Assembly: GCA_937891785.1 (NCBI GenBank)
Contig: CALAGN010000033.1
Location: 1-64,000 of the forward strand
DNA from: an uncultured Octadecabacter sp.
GTDB lineage: Bacteria > Pseudomonadota > Alphaproteobacteria > Rhodobacterales > Rhodobacteraceae
Direction of reading: 5' to 3'
DNA length: 64,000 bases
Shown: piece by piece, positions 7,713-60,366 of the stretch
Layout: each line of letters opens with the position of its first letter
Numbering within the stretch: position 1 is the stretch's first letter
Notes under the pieces: model-generated
What the model was told of the DNA's origin: nothing
The model's input: only the letters and a program-made list of their open reading frames with translations
Databases searched by the model: none
Translations under genes and position numbers: made by a program

Positions 7713-7745
7713 GCCCGGACCAGCAATTGGTCCGGGCGATTTTGC
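7713..7745 (+). terminator. hairpin between potF and potG (attenuator/partial terminator)
   Basis: gcccggaccagcaattggtccgggc followed by gatttt. Confidence 0.6.
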
Positions 7746-22864: not shown

Positions 22865-23488
22865 TCAAAGGGTGATATCCGCCGTACGTGATTGATCAAT
22901 CACGGCCTGCGCGTTGGGAATATCGTTGCTTTCGGCGCGTCGCGTGGCGGCTAGGCTGCTTAGCCCATGCGACAGCCAGCGGTGAATCAACCGCCCGCGC
23001 AGATCAGCCATGGGCACATCAAGCATCACAGTCAGATCCCAAAGCGGACCAAGCTGCGCCCAAGGCTCCGTTTTCATCAGCAGATAGTTCCCCTCCACAA
23101 GGATCACATCACACTCGGCGGGCACGATTACCGCGCCGGCGATGGCGATATCGCGGCTGCGATCAAACACCGGAATTGCCACTTTGTCACCGGCGCGCAA
23201 GCGCCGGACCATATGTACAAATCCCTCTGCATCAAAGGTTTCTGGCGCGCCCTTGCGTCCCAGAACGCCGCGCGTTTCCAGCAACCGATTGTCCAGATGA
23301 AAGCCATCCATCGGCACAACCGTGGCGCTACATTTCTGACTTGTCAGGCGGCGCGCAACTTCGGCGGCAAGCGTGGATTTGCCGCTGGCAGGTGCACCGC
23401 AAACGGCAACCATCATGCGCGGGTAATCTGCGCGCATCTCGTGAATACGATCAGCCAATTCGTTCACATGTGTATTGATCGAGTTCAT
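22865..23488 (-). CDS. P-loop NTPase, uridine kinase/fructokinase-like nucleoside/nucleotide kinase family
   Basis: Walker A 'GAPASGKSTLAAEVA', 'VVPMDGFHLDNRLL', 'VILVEGNYLL'. Confidence 0.85.
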   Translation of the reverse strand: MNSINTHVNELADRIHEMRADYPRMMVAVCGAPASGKSTLAAEVARRLTSQKCSATVVPMDGFHLDNRLLETRGVLGRKGAPETFDAEGFVHMVRRLRAGDKVAIPVFDRSRDIAIAGAVIVPAECDVILVEGNYLLMKTEPWAQLGPLWDLTVMLDVPMADLRGRLIHRWLSHGLSSLAATRRAESNDIPNAQAVIDQSRTADITL

Positions 23489-31355: not shown

Positions 31356-31407
31356 GGCGTCTTGCGCAGTGTCGCAGGCCATTGACCCGACTCACTTTGC
31401 AATTTAG

Positions 31408-31429
31408 TTATTGAACAACCGTTCAATAA
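31408..31429. promoter_or_regulatory. perfect 9-4-9 inverted repeat TTATTGAAC-AACC-GTTCAATAA upstream of ivd
   Basis: Read directly; ends 13 bp before the ATG at 31443. Confidence 0.7.
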
Positions 31430-31442
31430 TGCGAGGCCCGCC

Positions 31443-32606
31443 ATGTTTACTGCGTCTATGACCTTTGATTTGGGCGAGGACACCAACGCCCTGCGCGAGA
31501 TGGTGCACCGCTGGGCGCAAGAGCGCGTCAAGCCGCTGGCTGCCGAAATCGACACATCTAACACCTTCCCTGCGGCGCTTTGGACCGAAATGGGCGAACT
31601 GGGCTTGTTGGGGATCACGGTCTCCGAAGACTTGGGCGGGTCGGGCATGTCCTATCTTGCGCATACGATCGCTGTCGAAGAAATTGCCCGTGCCAGCGCC
31701 TCGGTGTCACTGTCGTATGGCGCGCATTCCAACCTCTGCGTGAACCAGATCAAGCTGAATGGCACAGATGATCAGCGCCGCAAGTATCTGCCAGGTTTAA
31801 TCTCGGGCGAACATGTGGGCGCGCTTGCCATGTCCGAAGCAGGGGCGGGATCCGATGTTGTGTCGATGTCGCTGCGCGCGGAACGGCGCAACGATCATTA
31901 CCGTCTGAACGGCAACAAATACTGGATCACCAATGGGCCGGACGCAGACACGCTCGTGGTTTACGCCAAGACCGACCCAAGTGCGGGTGCCAAAGGGATC
32001 ACGGCCTTTATCGTCGAGAAGTCGATGAAAGGCTTCAGCACGTCGGCGCATTTCGACAAGCTGGGCATGCGCGGGTCAAACACCGCTGAGCTCATTTTCG
32101 AAGACGTCGAGGTGCCGTTTGAAAATGTTCTGGGCGAGGAGGGCCGCGGCGTGCGCGTTCTGATGTCCGGCCTTGATTACGAGCGGGTTGTTCTTGCCGG
32201 GATCGGCACAGGGATCATGGCCGCCTGTCTGGATGAAATCATGCCCTATCTTGCGCAGCGCAAGCAGTTTGGCCAACCTATCGGGTCGTTCCAACTGATG
32301 CAGGGCAAGATCGCTGATATGTATACCGCGCTCAATTCCGCGCGCGCCTATGTTTATGCGGTCGCTGCGTCTTGTGATGTGGGCACTGTCACGCGCCAAG
32401 ACGCCGCTGCTTGCTGCCTTTATGCCTCCGAGCAGGCGATGGTGCAGGCGCATCAGGCAGTTCAGGCGATGGGTGGTGCCGGGTTTATGAACGATGCACC
32501 TGTCGCGCGTTTGTTCCGTGACGCCAAACTGATGGAAATCGGCGCCGGCACCAGCGAAATCCGCCGGATGCTGGTCGGGCGTGAAATGATGGGGGCGATG
32601 GGGTGA
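31443..32606 (+). CDS. ivd: isovaleryl-CoA dehydrogenase
   Basis: Acyl-CoA dehydrogenase signature '[15 protein letters not shown]', '[41 protein letters not shown]'; MCC context. Confidence 0.92.
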
Positions 32607-32658
32607 AAATAGCGCGCCTTTTTACACCTCAGTCACGGCAAACGGTCGGGTGTCAGCA

Positions 32659-34236
32659 ATGACAACGCAAACCTCTGATAGTCGCGCGGCCCATGAAGCA
32701 GCCCTTGCGCAGATCGCCGAAGTCGCCCGCAGCGCAGCCCAAGGTGGCAGCGAAAAATCCCGTGCGCGTCATATTTCGCGGGGCAAGATGTTGCCGCGTG
32801 ACCGTGTGGCGAACTTGCTGGATGCAGGATCGCCGTTTCTGGAAATTGGCGCGACGGCGGGGCATGGCATGTATGATGGCGCGGCCCCTTGCGGTGGTGT
32901 GATCGCCGGTGTCGGCAAGATCAGCGGCGTGGACTGCATGGTGGTCTGCAACGATGCTACCGTGAAGGGCGGCACCTATTATCCTGTGACGGTCAAGAAA
33001 CATCTGCGCGCGCAGGAAATCGCGGCGCAGTGTCATTTGCCTTGTGTCTATCTTGTGGATTCCGGCGGGGCGAACCTGCCCAATCAGGACGAAGTTTTCC
33101 CCGACCGCGACCATTTCGGGCGCATCTTTTACAATCAGGCGCAGATGTCGGCGGCGGGCATTGCGCAGATTGCTGTCGTGATGGGCTCTTGCACGGCAGG
33201 GGGCGCATACGTTCCCGCGATGGCGGATGTGTCGATCATTGTACGCGATCAGGGAACGATCTTTCTGGCCGGTCCGCCGCTGGTCAAGGCGGCGACAGGC
33301 GAAGTCGTTAGCGCCGAGGATCTGGGCGGCGGTGATGTGCATACGCGCCTATCTGGTGTGGCCGATTATCTCGCCGAGGATGACACGCATGCCTTGGCCT
33401 TGGCACGCCAAGCGGTCGCCAGCCTTTCGAGCGATCATACCTTACCTGTCAAATGCCAGACGTCTGAACCGCCCAAGCACGACATAGATGATCTGTTTGA
33501 TGTAATTCCCGCCGATCTGCGCACGCCCTATGACGTGCGCGAGGTGATCAAGCGCATCGTTGACGGCTCGCGCTTTGATGAATTCAAGGCGCGGTTCGGT
33601 GATACGCTGGTAACCGGGTTTGCGCATATCGAAGGGATGCCCTGCGGGATTGTCGCCAATAACGGCGTGTTGTTTTCACAGGCCGCCCAGAAGGGCGCGC
33701 ATTTTGTTGAACTGTGTAGTCAACGCCGTATCCCGCTGATATTCCTTCAAAATATCACGGGTTTCATGGTCGGCCGCGAATATGAAAACGAAGGTATCGC
33801 GCGCCACGGGGCCAAGATGGTGACTGCTGTTGCCACAACGTCGGTGCCGAAAATCACAATGGTGATTGGCGGGTCTTATGGCGCGGGCAACTATGGCATG
33901 TCGGGGCGGGCTTATTCGCCGAATTTCATGTGGTCATGGCCCACGTCGCGCACGGCTGTCATGGGCGGCGAACAGGCGGCTGGTGTCTTGGCGAGCGTGA
34001 AACGCGACGGGATTGAACGGGCAGGTGGCGAATGGTCAGCGCAGGAGGAAGCCGCGTTTAAGCAGCCAACCCTTGATATGTTCGCTGAACAATCGCATCC
34101 GCTTTATGCATCGGCACGCCTGTGGGATGATGGGGTGATTGATCCGCGCAAATCGCGCCAAGTGCTGGCGCTGTCACTGGCGGCGTCACTGAATGCGCCG
34201 ATACAAGAAACGCGTTTCGGCGTGTTCAGGATGTAA
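32659..34236 (+). CDS. methylcrotonoyl-CoA carboxylase beta (carboxyltransferase) subunit
   Basis: 'ICG-like CT domain: '[37 protein letters not shown]', '[49 protein letters not shown]'. Confidence 0.95.
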
Positions 34237-34302
34237 ACGCCAATGGCGCGGGAGAGCCGGCAACCAGCCCCGATACCAGCCCCGATTCCAGCAAGGAACG
34301 AT

Positions 34303-34752
34303 ATGACCGACAACAACCAACGCCCCGATGCTTATTCCGGTATTCCATGGGTCAATGTGACACCGACGCAGGCGCGCGCCCATCCCAAGGGGCAACTTGG
34401 CGTGATCCTATATGTGATCATTGCTTATCTGGTGCTTTCCGGACTGTTCAAGCTTTGGGCCTTTGGCACGGCCGGCTATCCGATCGGGGTGATTGCGCTG
34501 GGTGCGACCCTGCCGCTTGTGACTGGTCTTGGGCTTTGGGCGCGGATGCCTTGGGCGATTGTTGTGGCCATTATTATGGCCGGTTTCACGCTTTATGCCT
34601 TTGTCCGCAACATCGGGACGAACCCTGATTTTCTGTTGCTGGCTGATGCTTTGGTGGCTGTGGGTATGATTTTCTATCTGATCGAAGGGGATCGCCCCAA
34701 CCTGATTTACCGGCACCGCTACCGTAAATATTCGGCTTTGAAGGACGAATGA
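34303..34752 (+). CDS. hypothetical multi-TM membrane protein
   Basis: ORF 34243..34752 with several hydrophobic segments, between MCC subunit genes; start inferred at MTDNNQRPDAYSG. Confidence 0.65.
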   Translation: MTDNNQRPDAYSGIPWVNVTPTQARAHPKGQLGVILYVIIAYLVLSGLFKLWAFGTAGYPIGVIALGATLPLVTGLGLWARMPWAIVVAIIMAGFTLYAFVRNIGTNPDFLLLADALVAVGMIFYLIEGDRPNLIYRHRYRKYSALKDE

Positions 34753-36698
34753 TGTTCACACGTATCTTGATTGCCAATCGCGGCGAGATAGCCTGCCGGA
34801 TAATCCGCACGGCCCGCGCGCTGGGCGTGCAGACAGTCGCGGTCTATTCTGACGTGGACGCAAACGCACTGCATGTGCGCATGGCGGATCACGCGGTGCA
34901 TATTGGCGGGGCGGCCCCGTCTGACAGCTATTTGCGCGCAGACCGGATTATTGCGGCAGCGCTAGAAACTGGCGCGCAGGCGATCCATCCTGGATACGGA
35001 TTTTTGTCGGAAAACCCCGATTTTGTCGACGCCGTTGAAAAGGCGGGGTTGGTGTTTATCGGCCCAAGCGCGGATGCTATCCGTGCGATGGGCCTTAAAG
35101 ACGCGGCCAAGGCACTGATGCAAAAGGCAGGTGTGCCAGTGGTGCCGGGCTATCATGGGGCTGATCAGGATGATGCCTTGTTGGCGCAAGAGGCAGACAA
35201 GATCGGTTATCCGATCATGATCAAGGCCGTCGCTGGTGGTGGTGGCAAGGGCATGCGTCTGGTGGAGATTGCGGCTGACTTTGGCCAAGCGCTGGACAGT
35301 GCAAGGGCCGAGGCACGCACCGCATTTGGCAATGATGCCGTGTTGATCGAGAAATACATCACCAGCCCGCGCCACATCGAAGTGCAGGTGTTTGGCGATG
35401 GTGCGGATGCCGTGCATCTGTTTGAACGCGATTGCTCCCTTCAGCGCCGCCATCAAAAGGTCATCGAAGAAGCCCCCGCACCTGACATGACGGATAGCGT
35501 GCGCGCGGCCATGTGCGCGGCCGCCGTGCGCGCCGCCAAGGCGATTGGCTATGCCGGTGCGGGCACCGTCGAATTTATCGTAGACGGGTCAAATGGGCTG
35601 CGCGATGACGGGTTCTGGTTCATGGAAATGAACACCCGCCTCCAAGTGGAACACCCCGTTACCGAGGCGATCACCGGCGTTGATCTGGTCGAGTGGCAAT
35701 TGCGTGTCGCGGCGGGTCAGGGGCTGCCCTTGTCCCAAGACGAGTTGACTATCAGCGGGCACGCCTTTGAGGCACGCCTTTACGCAGAAGATGTGCCAGC
35801 TGGGTTCTTGCCCGCAACCGGACGGCTGGCGCATCTGGCGTTTCCTGACGGGGTTCGCGCTGACAGAGGCGTTGAAACAGGGGATGAAATATCGCCCTAC
35901 TACGATCCGATGATTGCCAAAGTGATAACCCATGGACCCGACCGTGCAACAGCACTTGCGGCCTTGTCGCGCGGCTTGGGCGAAACACAGGTGGCAGGGA
36001 CTGTGACCAACCTTGGGTTTCTTAAATCGCTAGCCGATCATGCAGGGTTTCGGGCGGGGCAGGTTGATACCGGCTTGATCGCGCGCGATCTTGATGCGCT
36101 GGTCGCGCAAGATCCCGCGCCCGCCCAAGTACGCGCACAGGCGGCCCTTGTGGCGACGGGGCAATGGTATGATCAGGGACCTATGGCTGGCTTTACCCTC
36201 TGGGAGCCGCTCGCACAGGAGGTCGCGCTGGCGACCGGTGGCACGGATACGCATCTGACATTGAAGCAAACCGATCCCGACACAGTTGTCGTGACATGGG
36301 CAGATCAGGCCGTAACCTGCACACGGCGCGCGGGGCTTTGGTGGTTCAACGACCAGCGCGCGCGCGAATTTTCCCGTCACAGCGATCAGATCACGGTCTT
36401 TGGGGCGCCGACCTATGCCTTTACGATTCTTGACCTTTTAATGCGGGACACTGGTGCTGCCATGGGTGGCGATAGCGTTGCCGCGCCGATGCCCGGTCTT
36501 GTACAAAGCGTCGCCGTGACCGTGGGCGATACCGTGACGATGGGTGATCGACTTTGCGTCCTTGAGGCGATGAAGATGGAATACGTGCTGCGCGCGCCGC
36601 GTGATGGTGTGATTGCCACGCTTTCGGTCAAGGCAGGTGGTCAGGTTGTGGCTGGCGCGGTGCTTGTTACATTGGTACCCGAAAGCGAGGGCACATGA
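34749..36698 (+). CDS. methylcrotonoyl-CoA carboxylase alpha subunit (biotin carboxylase + BCCP)
   Basis: 'RILIANRGEIACRIIRTARALGVQTVAVYSD', ATP-grasp 'KAVAGGGGKGMR', biotinyl motif 'VLEAMKMEYVL'. Confidence 0.96.
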   Translation: MMFTRILIANRGEIACRIIRTARALGVQTVAVYSDVDANALHVRMADHAVHIGGAAPSDSYLRADRIIAAALETGAQAIHPGYGFLSENPDFVDAVEKAGLVFIGPSADAIRAMGLKDAAKALMQKAGVPVVPGYHGADQDDALLAQEADKIGYPIMIKAVAGGGGKGMRLVEIAADFGQALDSARAEARTAFGNDAVLIEKYITSPRHIEVQVFGDGADAVHLFERDCSLQRRHQKVIEEAPAPDMTDSVRAAMCAAAVRAAKAIGYAGAGTVEFIVDGSNGLRDDGFWFMEMNTRLQVEHPVTEAITGVDLVEWQLRVAAGQGLPLSQDELTISGHAFEARLYAEDVPAGFLPATGRLAHLAFPDGVRADRGVETGDEISPYYDPMIAKVITHGPDRATALAALSRGLGETQVAGTVTNLGFLKSLADHAGFRAGQVDTGLIARDLDALVAQDPAPAQVRAQAALVATGQWYDQGPMAGFTLWEPLAQEVALATGGTDTHLTLKQTDPDTVVVTWADQAVTCTRRAGLWWFNDQRAREFSRHSDQITVFGAPTYAFTILDLLMRDTGAAMGGDSVAAPMPGLVQSVAVTVGDTVTMGDRLCVLEAMKMEYVLRAPRDGVIATLSVKAGGQVVAGAVLVTLVPESEGT

Positions 36699-37384
36699 TC
36701 CGCCTACACCACTGCCACCAGACACGTTCCATGCGCACATTGTGGCTGCTGCACGAGCTAGAGATCGAGTTCAAGGTTGCCGTCTATCCGTTTGATCAAA
36801 CGCTGCGGATGGACGCATTTCGCGCGCTCAATCCCATTGGTCGCGTTCCGGCGCTGGAAATCGATGGCGAAGTGATGTCGGAAACGGGGGCGATCACGCA
36901 ATACCTGTGTGAAAGGTTTGACAGGTTTGGCCTTGGGCGGCCTGCGGGTGATCTGGATCGGATGGACTGGCTGGTCTGGGTGCATTTTGCAGAAACCGTC
37001 AGCCAGCACACGGCTGCTTTGACCCAACAACATATCGCCCTGCGCGAGGATCATATGCGCAGCCCGATCATTATGCAGCTTGAAGCCAAGCGGCTGGGCA
37101 AATGTCTTGAGGCGATCGAGGGGCGGCTCTCCACGCCGGTGGAAAACCGTGATTATTTGCTTACCAGCGGCTTTAGCGCGGCCGATGTCAGTGTCGGGCA
37201 GGCGGTCTATATGGGGCAGCACTTTGTGCGGCTCGATGCCTATCCCGAAACTGCGAAATGGTTTGAACGCATCACCGACCGCACGGCATTTCAGCATTGC
37301 CTGCCTCCCGCTGACGGGCGGCTATATACCCGTGATTTCTATCCGCCGTGGGACATTGACGATGCGCGGTGCCGTCGCGACTGA
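36695..37384 (+). CDS. glutathione S-transferase family protein
   Basis: 'MIRLHHCHQTRSMRTLWLLHELEIEFKV', 'NPIGRVPALEIDGEVMSETGAITQYL'; ATGA overlap with MCC alpha. Confidence 0.9.
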   Translation: MIRLHHCHQTRSMRTLWLLHELEIEFKVAVYPFDQTLRMDAFRALNPIGRVPALEIDGEVMSETGAITQYLCERFDRFGLGRPAGDLDRMDWLVWVHFAETVSQHTAALTQQHIALREDHMRSPIIMQLEAKRLGKCLEAIEGRLSTPVENRDYLLTSGFSAADVSVGQAVYMGQHFVRLDAYPETAKWFERITDRTAFQHCLPPADGRLYTRDFYPPWDIDDARCRRD

Positions 37385-58648: not shown

Positions 58649-60312
58649 GCAGTAACCGTTTGATCTACCTTCCCCTTGGCGGGGCGGGCGAGATCGGGAT
58701 GAATTGCTATGTCTATGGCTATGGCAAGCCCGATCAAGAACGGCTGATCGTGGTCGATTTAGGCGTGACGTTTCCCGATATGGACACGTCACCCGGTGTG
58801 GATTTGATTCTGCCCGACATCGCTTGGCTCGAGGCGCGGCGCGACCGGATTGACGGGATTTTCATCACCCACGCCCACGAAGACCATGTGGGGGCCGTTG
58901 GCCATACTTGGAGACGTCTGGGCGCGCCGATCTATGCGCGGGCCTTCACGGCCAATATCGCGCGGCGCAAGATGTCTGAACACGGGTTCAGTGATGACAG
59001 CGTGACTGTGGTGAACAAATGGCCCGAAACCACTAAGGCCGGGCCGTTTTCTGTGGGTTTCCTGCCGATCAGCCATTCCATTCCCGAAAGTTCTGCGCTG
59101 GTGATCGACAGCCCCGAGGGGCGCGTATTGCACACCGGCGATTTCAAGATCGACACTTCGCCCGTGGTAGGCGAACCGTTCGATCATGACCTTTGGCGTG
59201 ATGTGTCCAAGGACGGTGTGCGTGCGCTGGTTTGTGACAGCACCAACATCTTTTCCACGCACGCTGGGCGCTCGGAATCGACCGTTGGGCCGGAAATTGA
59301 GCGTTTGATGCGCGAAATGAAGGGGATGGTCGTTGCCACCACATTCGCGTCCAACATCGCGCGTTTGAAAACGCTGGCCCAAGCTGCTGACCGTGCGGGA
59401 CGTTCTGTGTGCCTGCTGGGCCGCTCTATGCGCCGGATGACCGAAGCTGCAGCCGAAGTCGGAATCTTGGGTGATTTTCCAAGCACCATTTCGCCTGAAG
59501 ATGCATTGAGCGTGCCGCGCGAAAACCTGATGTTACTGGTTACGGGGTCGCAGGGTGAACGCCGTGCGGCCAGCGCCCAACTGGCGAATGGCAAATACAT
59601 GGGGCTGACGATGAAGGATGGCGATACCTTCCTGTTCAGTTCCAAAACGATTCCCGGAAACGAGCGTGGCGTGATCCGCATCATGAACCAGTTTTCGGAA
59701 ATGGGCGTTGATATCGTTGATGATACTTCGGGTTTGTATCACGTGTCGGGCCATGCCAACCGCCCCGACATCGAAGAAATGCACGATATCGTCAAACCGC
59801 AGATTGTCATTCCGATGCACGGTGAACATCGCCACCTGCGCGAACACGTCAAGATCGCTGAAGGTAAAGGGCTGGCCGGTATCGTTGCCGTGAACGGCAT
59901 GATGATTGACCTGTCTGGCAATGCCCCGCGCGTCGCCGAATACATCGACACGGGCCGCACCTATCTGGATGGCACCGTGCAATACGGTGCGATGGACGGG
60001 ATCGTGCGCGACCGTATCCGCATGGCGCTGAACGGCCATGTGATTGTCACGACGATCATCGATGAAACTGGCGATCCTTTGGGTGATCCGTGGTGCGAGA
60101 TCATGGGCCTACCCGAAACAGGCCGCAACAACGCGCCGCTGATTGATGTGCTGGAACATGACCTGTCGCAGTTCATGAATCGTGCGGCGGGCAAAACGCT
60201 GGCGAATGATGAAAAGCTGGAACGCGAGCTGCGCAAGATCGCGCGCAGTTCCGCCATGACCGAGATCGGCAAGAAGCCGGAAGTGACGGTGGTGATTTCG
60301 CGTCTCAGCTAA
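58645..60312 (+). CDS. rnj: ribonuclease J
   Basis: 'LPLGGAGEIGMNCYVYGYG', 'FITHAHEDHVGAVGH', 'VLHTGDFKIDTSPV', 'HVSGHANRPDIEEMHDIVKPQIVIPMHGE'. Confidence 0.95.
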   Translation: MSSNRLIYLPLGGAGEIGMNCYVYGYGKPDQERLIVVDLGVTFPDMDTSPGVDLILPDIAWLEARRDRIDGIFITHAHEDHVGAVGHTWRRLGAPIYARAFTANIARRKMSEHGFSDDSVTVVNKWPETTKAGPFSVGFLPISHSIPESSALVIDSPEGRVLHTGDFKIDTSPVVGEPFDHDLWRDVSKDGVRALVCDSTNIFSTHAGRSESTVGPEIERLMREMKGMVVATTFASNIARLKTLAQAADRAGRSVCLLGRSMRRMTEAAAEVGILGDFPSTISPEDALSVPRENLMLLVTGSQGERRAASAQLANGKYMGLTMKDGDTFLFSSKTIPGNERGVIRIMNQFSEMGVDIVDDTSGLYHVSGHANRPDIEEMHDIVKPQIVIPMHGEHRHLREHVKIAEGKGLAGIVAVNGMMIDLSGNAPRVAEYIDTGRTYLDGTVQYGAMDGIVRDRIRMALNGHVIVTTIIDETGDPLGDPWCEIMGLPETGRNNAPLIDVLEHDLSQFMNRAAGKTLANDEKLERELRKIARSSAMTEIGKKPEVTVVISRLS

Positions 60313-60330: not shown

Positions 60331-60366
60331 AAAAAGGGCGGGGCCATTGGCACCCGCCCTTTTTTA
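60331..60366. terminator. bidirectional Rho-independent terminator between rnj and DEAD-box helicase
   Basis: aaaaagggcggg-gccattggca-cccgcccttttttatt. Confidence 0.9.

Follow-up and report, generated by a model that had tools for sequence, protein, structure and literature searches.

A conserved dyad upstream of ivd, probable operator of a trans-encoded TetR-family repressor of leucine catabolism in Rhodobacteraceae

The inverted repeat that precedes the isovaleryl-CoA dehydrogenase gene (ivd) in the window (the whole stretch of DNA that was analysed, 64,000 nucleotides long) is very probably an operator at which a dedicated TetR-family repressor acts; the repressor would also regulate its own gene and be encoded in trans (C34:2475-3071). 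With high confidence the regulator can be named from comparative evidence, an example of how an orphan operator and a distant regulator can be paired by the site that they share and by their being lost together; the regulator-operator pair is new and of a kind already known from LiuQ, BkaR and AibR. On this reading leucine catabolism throughout the Rhodobacteraceae, the marine Roseobacter group among them, would gain a regulator with its operator and a likely ligand.

Window letters 31408-31429 read TTATTGAACAACCGTTCAATAA, a perfect 9-4-9 dyad to which no strand is assigned (TTATTGAAC-AACC-GTTCAATAA) and whose two arms are reverse complements of each other. The ATG of ivd stands at 31443, which leaves 13 bp between the end of the dyad and the start codon, so that the preliminary description of this site was exact in both sequence and coordinates. 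No other perfect 9-4-9 dyad exists in the 64 kb of the window. Arms of 9 bp recur, however, in five further entries at spacers of 0-10, and for this reason the palindrome alone would be weak evidence; the site pattern with two mismatches likewise shows no enrichment inside the window. The part that matters for comparison is the core TGAAC-N4-GTTCA (31412-31425, also strandless), which is invariant in 83 exact ivd sites and is found again at the TetR gene. A genome-wide search with the TTGAAC pattern and one mismatch gave background-like results and was set aside, and it was the shorter core, learned from relatives, that resolved the search. A scan with the sigma-70 consensus found no promoter. 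There is a putative -35 element on the plus strand (TTGACC, 31382-31387), weakly conserved 24-30 nt upstream of the core, and if it is the true -35, the -10 element would overlap the left arm of the dyad.

The genes that follow, all on the plus strand, begin with ivd itself (31443-32606, an acyl-CoA dehydrogenase by Pfam) and continue with mccB, the methylcrotonyl-CoA carboxylase beta subunit (32650-34236), which carries a carboxyltransferase domain and has an orthologue in 77 of 79 relative loci, and with mccA, the alpha (biotin) subunit (34749-36698), a biotin carboxylase present in 72/79. A carboxyltransferase followed by a biotin carboxylase is what is expected of mccB and mccA. Between mccB and mccA lies a gene for a small putative membrane protein (34243-34752) without a Pfam match, and a similar protein occurs near ivd in 2 of the 79 relative loci. 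The end of mccA is overlapped by a glutathione S-transferase-like gene (36695-37384; Pfam GST_N and GST_C), a homologue of which is found downstream of ivd in 41/79. No hmgL-type gene adjoining the latter was recognised in the list of open reading frames.

The genome from which the window comes contains four exact copies of the core, one of which is located 13 bp upstream of a TetR gene on a contig other than that of the window (C34:2475-3071, minus strand, 198 aa). When the site is extended to include its A/T flanks and one mismatch at most is allowed, only two sites are left in that genome, those of ivd and of the C34 TetR gene. The copies at window position 58977 and at C143:1086 were set aside: they have no A/T flanks on either side and are probably in coding DNA. 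The protein consists of an N-terminal helix-turn-helix domain (PF00440, TetR_N, above cut-off) and a C-terminal ligand-binding domain (PF17932, TetR_C_24, E 1.4e-28). None of the eight TetR matches in this genome lies on the contig of the window, and only the C34-type TetR has the site. The preliminary description had held the regulator to be in trans and unidentified; the first part stands, while the second gives way to the C34 gene, and the second genomic site near a TetR gene, to which it had looked for support, is thus at hand. The TetR promoter palindrome is also conserved, being exact in 76/88 genomes and within one mismatch in 82/88, usually 13-15 bp before the TetR ATG. The neighbour of the TetR gene in most relatives is homoserine dehydrogenase, and a small lipoprotein-like gene often separates the two. 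A tblastn search with the C34 TetR gave no match near ivd in the 80 closest loci. Twelve named genomes were checked for the TetR, Phaeobacter italicus and Leisingera aquimarina being two of them, and each one has it, which makes direct tests possible.

The presence of this TetR follows that of the operator. In the first set, of 61 genomes, the operator was found at ivd in 23/24 TetR-bearing genomes versus 1/6 of those that bear ivd without TetR. In the survey of the whole family, the figures were 84/85 with TetR versus 4/20 without (totals that omit seven genomes in which a TetR adjoins ivd), and for the genomes beyond the first set only, 61/62 versus 3/14. The Fisher test for the family survey (p 2.5e-14) ignores kinship among the genomes, and its value is weakened because these are related and offer few independent contrasts; on the ivd tree there are five that are well supported, of which about four are concordant and none discordant (p 0.125). 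A relative of the same genus (G001) has neither TetR nor operator, though its ivd is 90% identical. One genome (G103) has the TetR and lacks the ivd operator. Four genomes carry the operator without a detected TetR, and since three of these assemblies are in at least 300 contigs or less than 97% complete, the gene may simply not have been assembled in those three. The covariation across the family, together with the site at C34, supports the TetR-family operator that had been proposed from the window.

In seven genomes (G018, G117, G123, G130, G138, G151 and G161) the gene of a TetR relative immediately precedes ivd in the same orientation. These proteins are 36-52% identical to the TetR of the window's genome, and each of the seven genes is preceded by a related site, which is exact in three, has one mismatch in two and is more altered in the other two. 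At one of these loci (L135, G018:C122) the recognition helix departs from the usual VQAGALYxY and the dyad is altered too, a possible case of co-evolution between the protein and its site. In the genomes that lack the TetR, a profile built from its orthologues detected no TetR next to ivd.

The dyad could instead serve another regulator, either a different TetR or some other palindrome-binding protein, the C34 site being coincidental or shared. This proposal could draw on the four genomes with operator and no detected C34-type TetR, and on a different TetR gene that carries the same core in G010. It is nonetheless quite unlikely, given that among the eight TetRs of the window's own genome the C34-type alone carries the site, that TetR and operator vary together across genomes, and that a TetR adjoins ivd in seven of them.

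The conservation of the site bears on the other alternatives. The core lies 14-61 bp upstream of ivd in 80/80 loci collected, nearly all from Rhodobacteraceae, which were picked by ivd similarity and are thus not an unbiased sample; there was one further copy in the 1.3 Mb of sequence that these loci comprise. In the genome survey, which is less biased, the exact core is found within 120 bp before ivd in 83/85 TetR-bearing genomes, and in none of the shuffled upstream sequences. In the 83 exact ivd sites the ten core positions are invariant, with full information content, and the arms just outside the core are next best (TTAA on the left, AATAA on the right), while the flanks beyond the dyad have low information content. 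Two loci of the collection come from assemblies with actinobacterial labels (L077, Nocardioides marinus, and L086, Enemella evansiae); the ivd in both is Rhodobacteraceae-like (84-85% identical) and is preceded by the same operator, and these assemblies are probably mislabelled or contaminated.

The idea that the dyad works at the RNA level, as a hairpin in the leader of ivd (attenuation or translation control), would suit a 9-bp stem placed 13 bp before a start codon. It is very improbable, in that the core arms are fixed, without compensatory changes, in all 83 exact sites, and the same sequence stands before the TetR gene and is lost from ivd where the TetR is absent. A chance palindrome, for which the other 9-bp-arm dyads and the unenriched two-mismatch pattern of the window might be invoked, is judged already refuted by the conservation in 80/80 loci with a single stray copy and none in shuffled upstreams, so the comparison points to the dyad as a real cis element.

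With the dyad read as the operator of the C34 TetR, a mechanism can be proposed. Bound as a dimer to TGAAC-N4-GTTCA, the TetR would cover the promoter or start region and block the initiation of ivd-mccB-mccA-gst, and through its own site it would repress itself. Isovaleryl-CoA, made from leucine, or the next intermediate, 3-methylcrotonyl-CoA, would bind the C-terminal domain and release the protein, and leucine catabolism would thus be induced. Isovaleryl-CoA is the natural guess for the inducer because it is the substrate of Ivd. The predicted structure of the TetR, obtained from an alignment with a pLDDT of 93.6 (the single-sequence prediction was poor), has PfmR and the AibR-isovaleryl-CoA complex (5K7H, TM 0.82) as its top fold matches, followed by KstR2, FadR and BkaR; the matches include a stearoyl-CoA complex of FadR. 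KstR2 and FadR are acyl-CoA-responsive regulators. Among solved structures PfmR of Thermus thermophilus (3VPR) also gives the best match by profile (E 7e-38).

In Myxococcus xanthus the synthesis of isovaleryl-CoA is under the control of AibR, which acts as a repressor with its ligand bound (PMC6018408, PMC9131029). On the evidence of the model, the likeness would lie in the TetR fold and in a ligand that is the substrate of Ivd, and the difference in the pathway controlled and in repression by the ligand-bound form, on account of which the ligand effect here may be of either sign (PMC6018408). The closest characterised analogue, also among the fold matches, is BkaR of mycobacteria (Rv2506/MSMEG_4718), an autoregulated TetR repressor that binds a palindrome as a dimer and controls a branched-chain keto-acid operon including acyl-CoA carboxylase genes (PMC3920632). 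The site before ivd-mccB-mccA suggests a comparable control of a leucine/branched-chain catabolic operon. However, the BkaR operator, GTTA(N)T(N4)A(N)TAAC, differs from TGAAC-N4-GTTCA, and BkaR is actinobacterial and divergent from its own operon, whereas the C34 TetR is remote from ivd. LiuQ, compared by description only, resembles the present protein as a TetR regulator of branched-chain amino acid use, and is reported to be unique to betaproteobacteria among the lineages studied (PMC5343134). In proteobacteria the leucine/branched-chain degradation genes are also controlled by LiuR, a protein of the MerR family (PMC5343134), whereas the regulator that tracks the operator here is of TetR type. 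According to a network paper on R. sphaeroides, ivd and mccB are among the genes changed in an RSP_0489 mutant (PMC4344238). Searches of the accessible literature found no paper that names the TetR-operator pair, which may have been predicted computationally before.

The strong sites of the window's genome are confined to ivd and the TetR gene, and relatives carry some further ones. The mccB gene of G002, which is separated from ivd, has a perfect site to itself (AGGAATTGAACAGGCGTTCAATTCCT), some 30 nt ahead of its likely start, and ivd has a site as well. Single sites in relatives (L009, L010, L148 and L159) precede a short-chain dehydrogenase (G014), an SbtA-like transporter (G006) and an acyl-CoA ligase (G036, G021), names which, being based on inspection of the sequences, are less certain; these are possible regulon extensions. 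The G010 locus (L014, G010:C3:129424-129441) has the same core dyad between the different TetR gene and a divergent monooxygenase-like gene, which points to a second regulator whose site is similar, or else to an extension of the regulon. A broader and unlikely proposal is that one family-wide TetR senses isovaleryl-CoA for leucine breakdown and also tunes amino-acid synthesis, the latter because the operator is in the divergent region between the TetR gene and the lipoprotein-homoserine dehydrogenase genes.

Other symmetrical sequences of the window deserve mention. A perfect 18-bp palindrome at 22887-22904 (CGTGATTGATCAATCACG) is another candidate regulator site, and two strong GC-rich inverted repeats, at 7713-7737 (GCCCGGACC...GGTCCGGGC) and at 60334-60361 (AAGGGCGGG...CCCGCCCTT), are possibly terminators.
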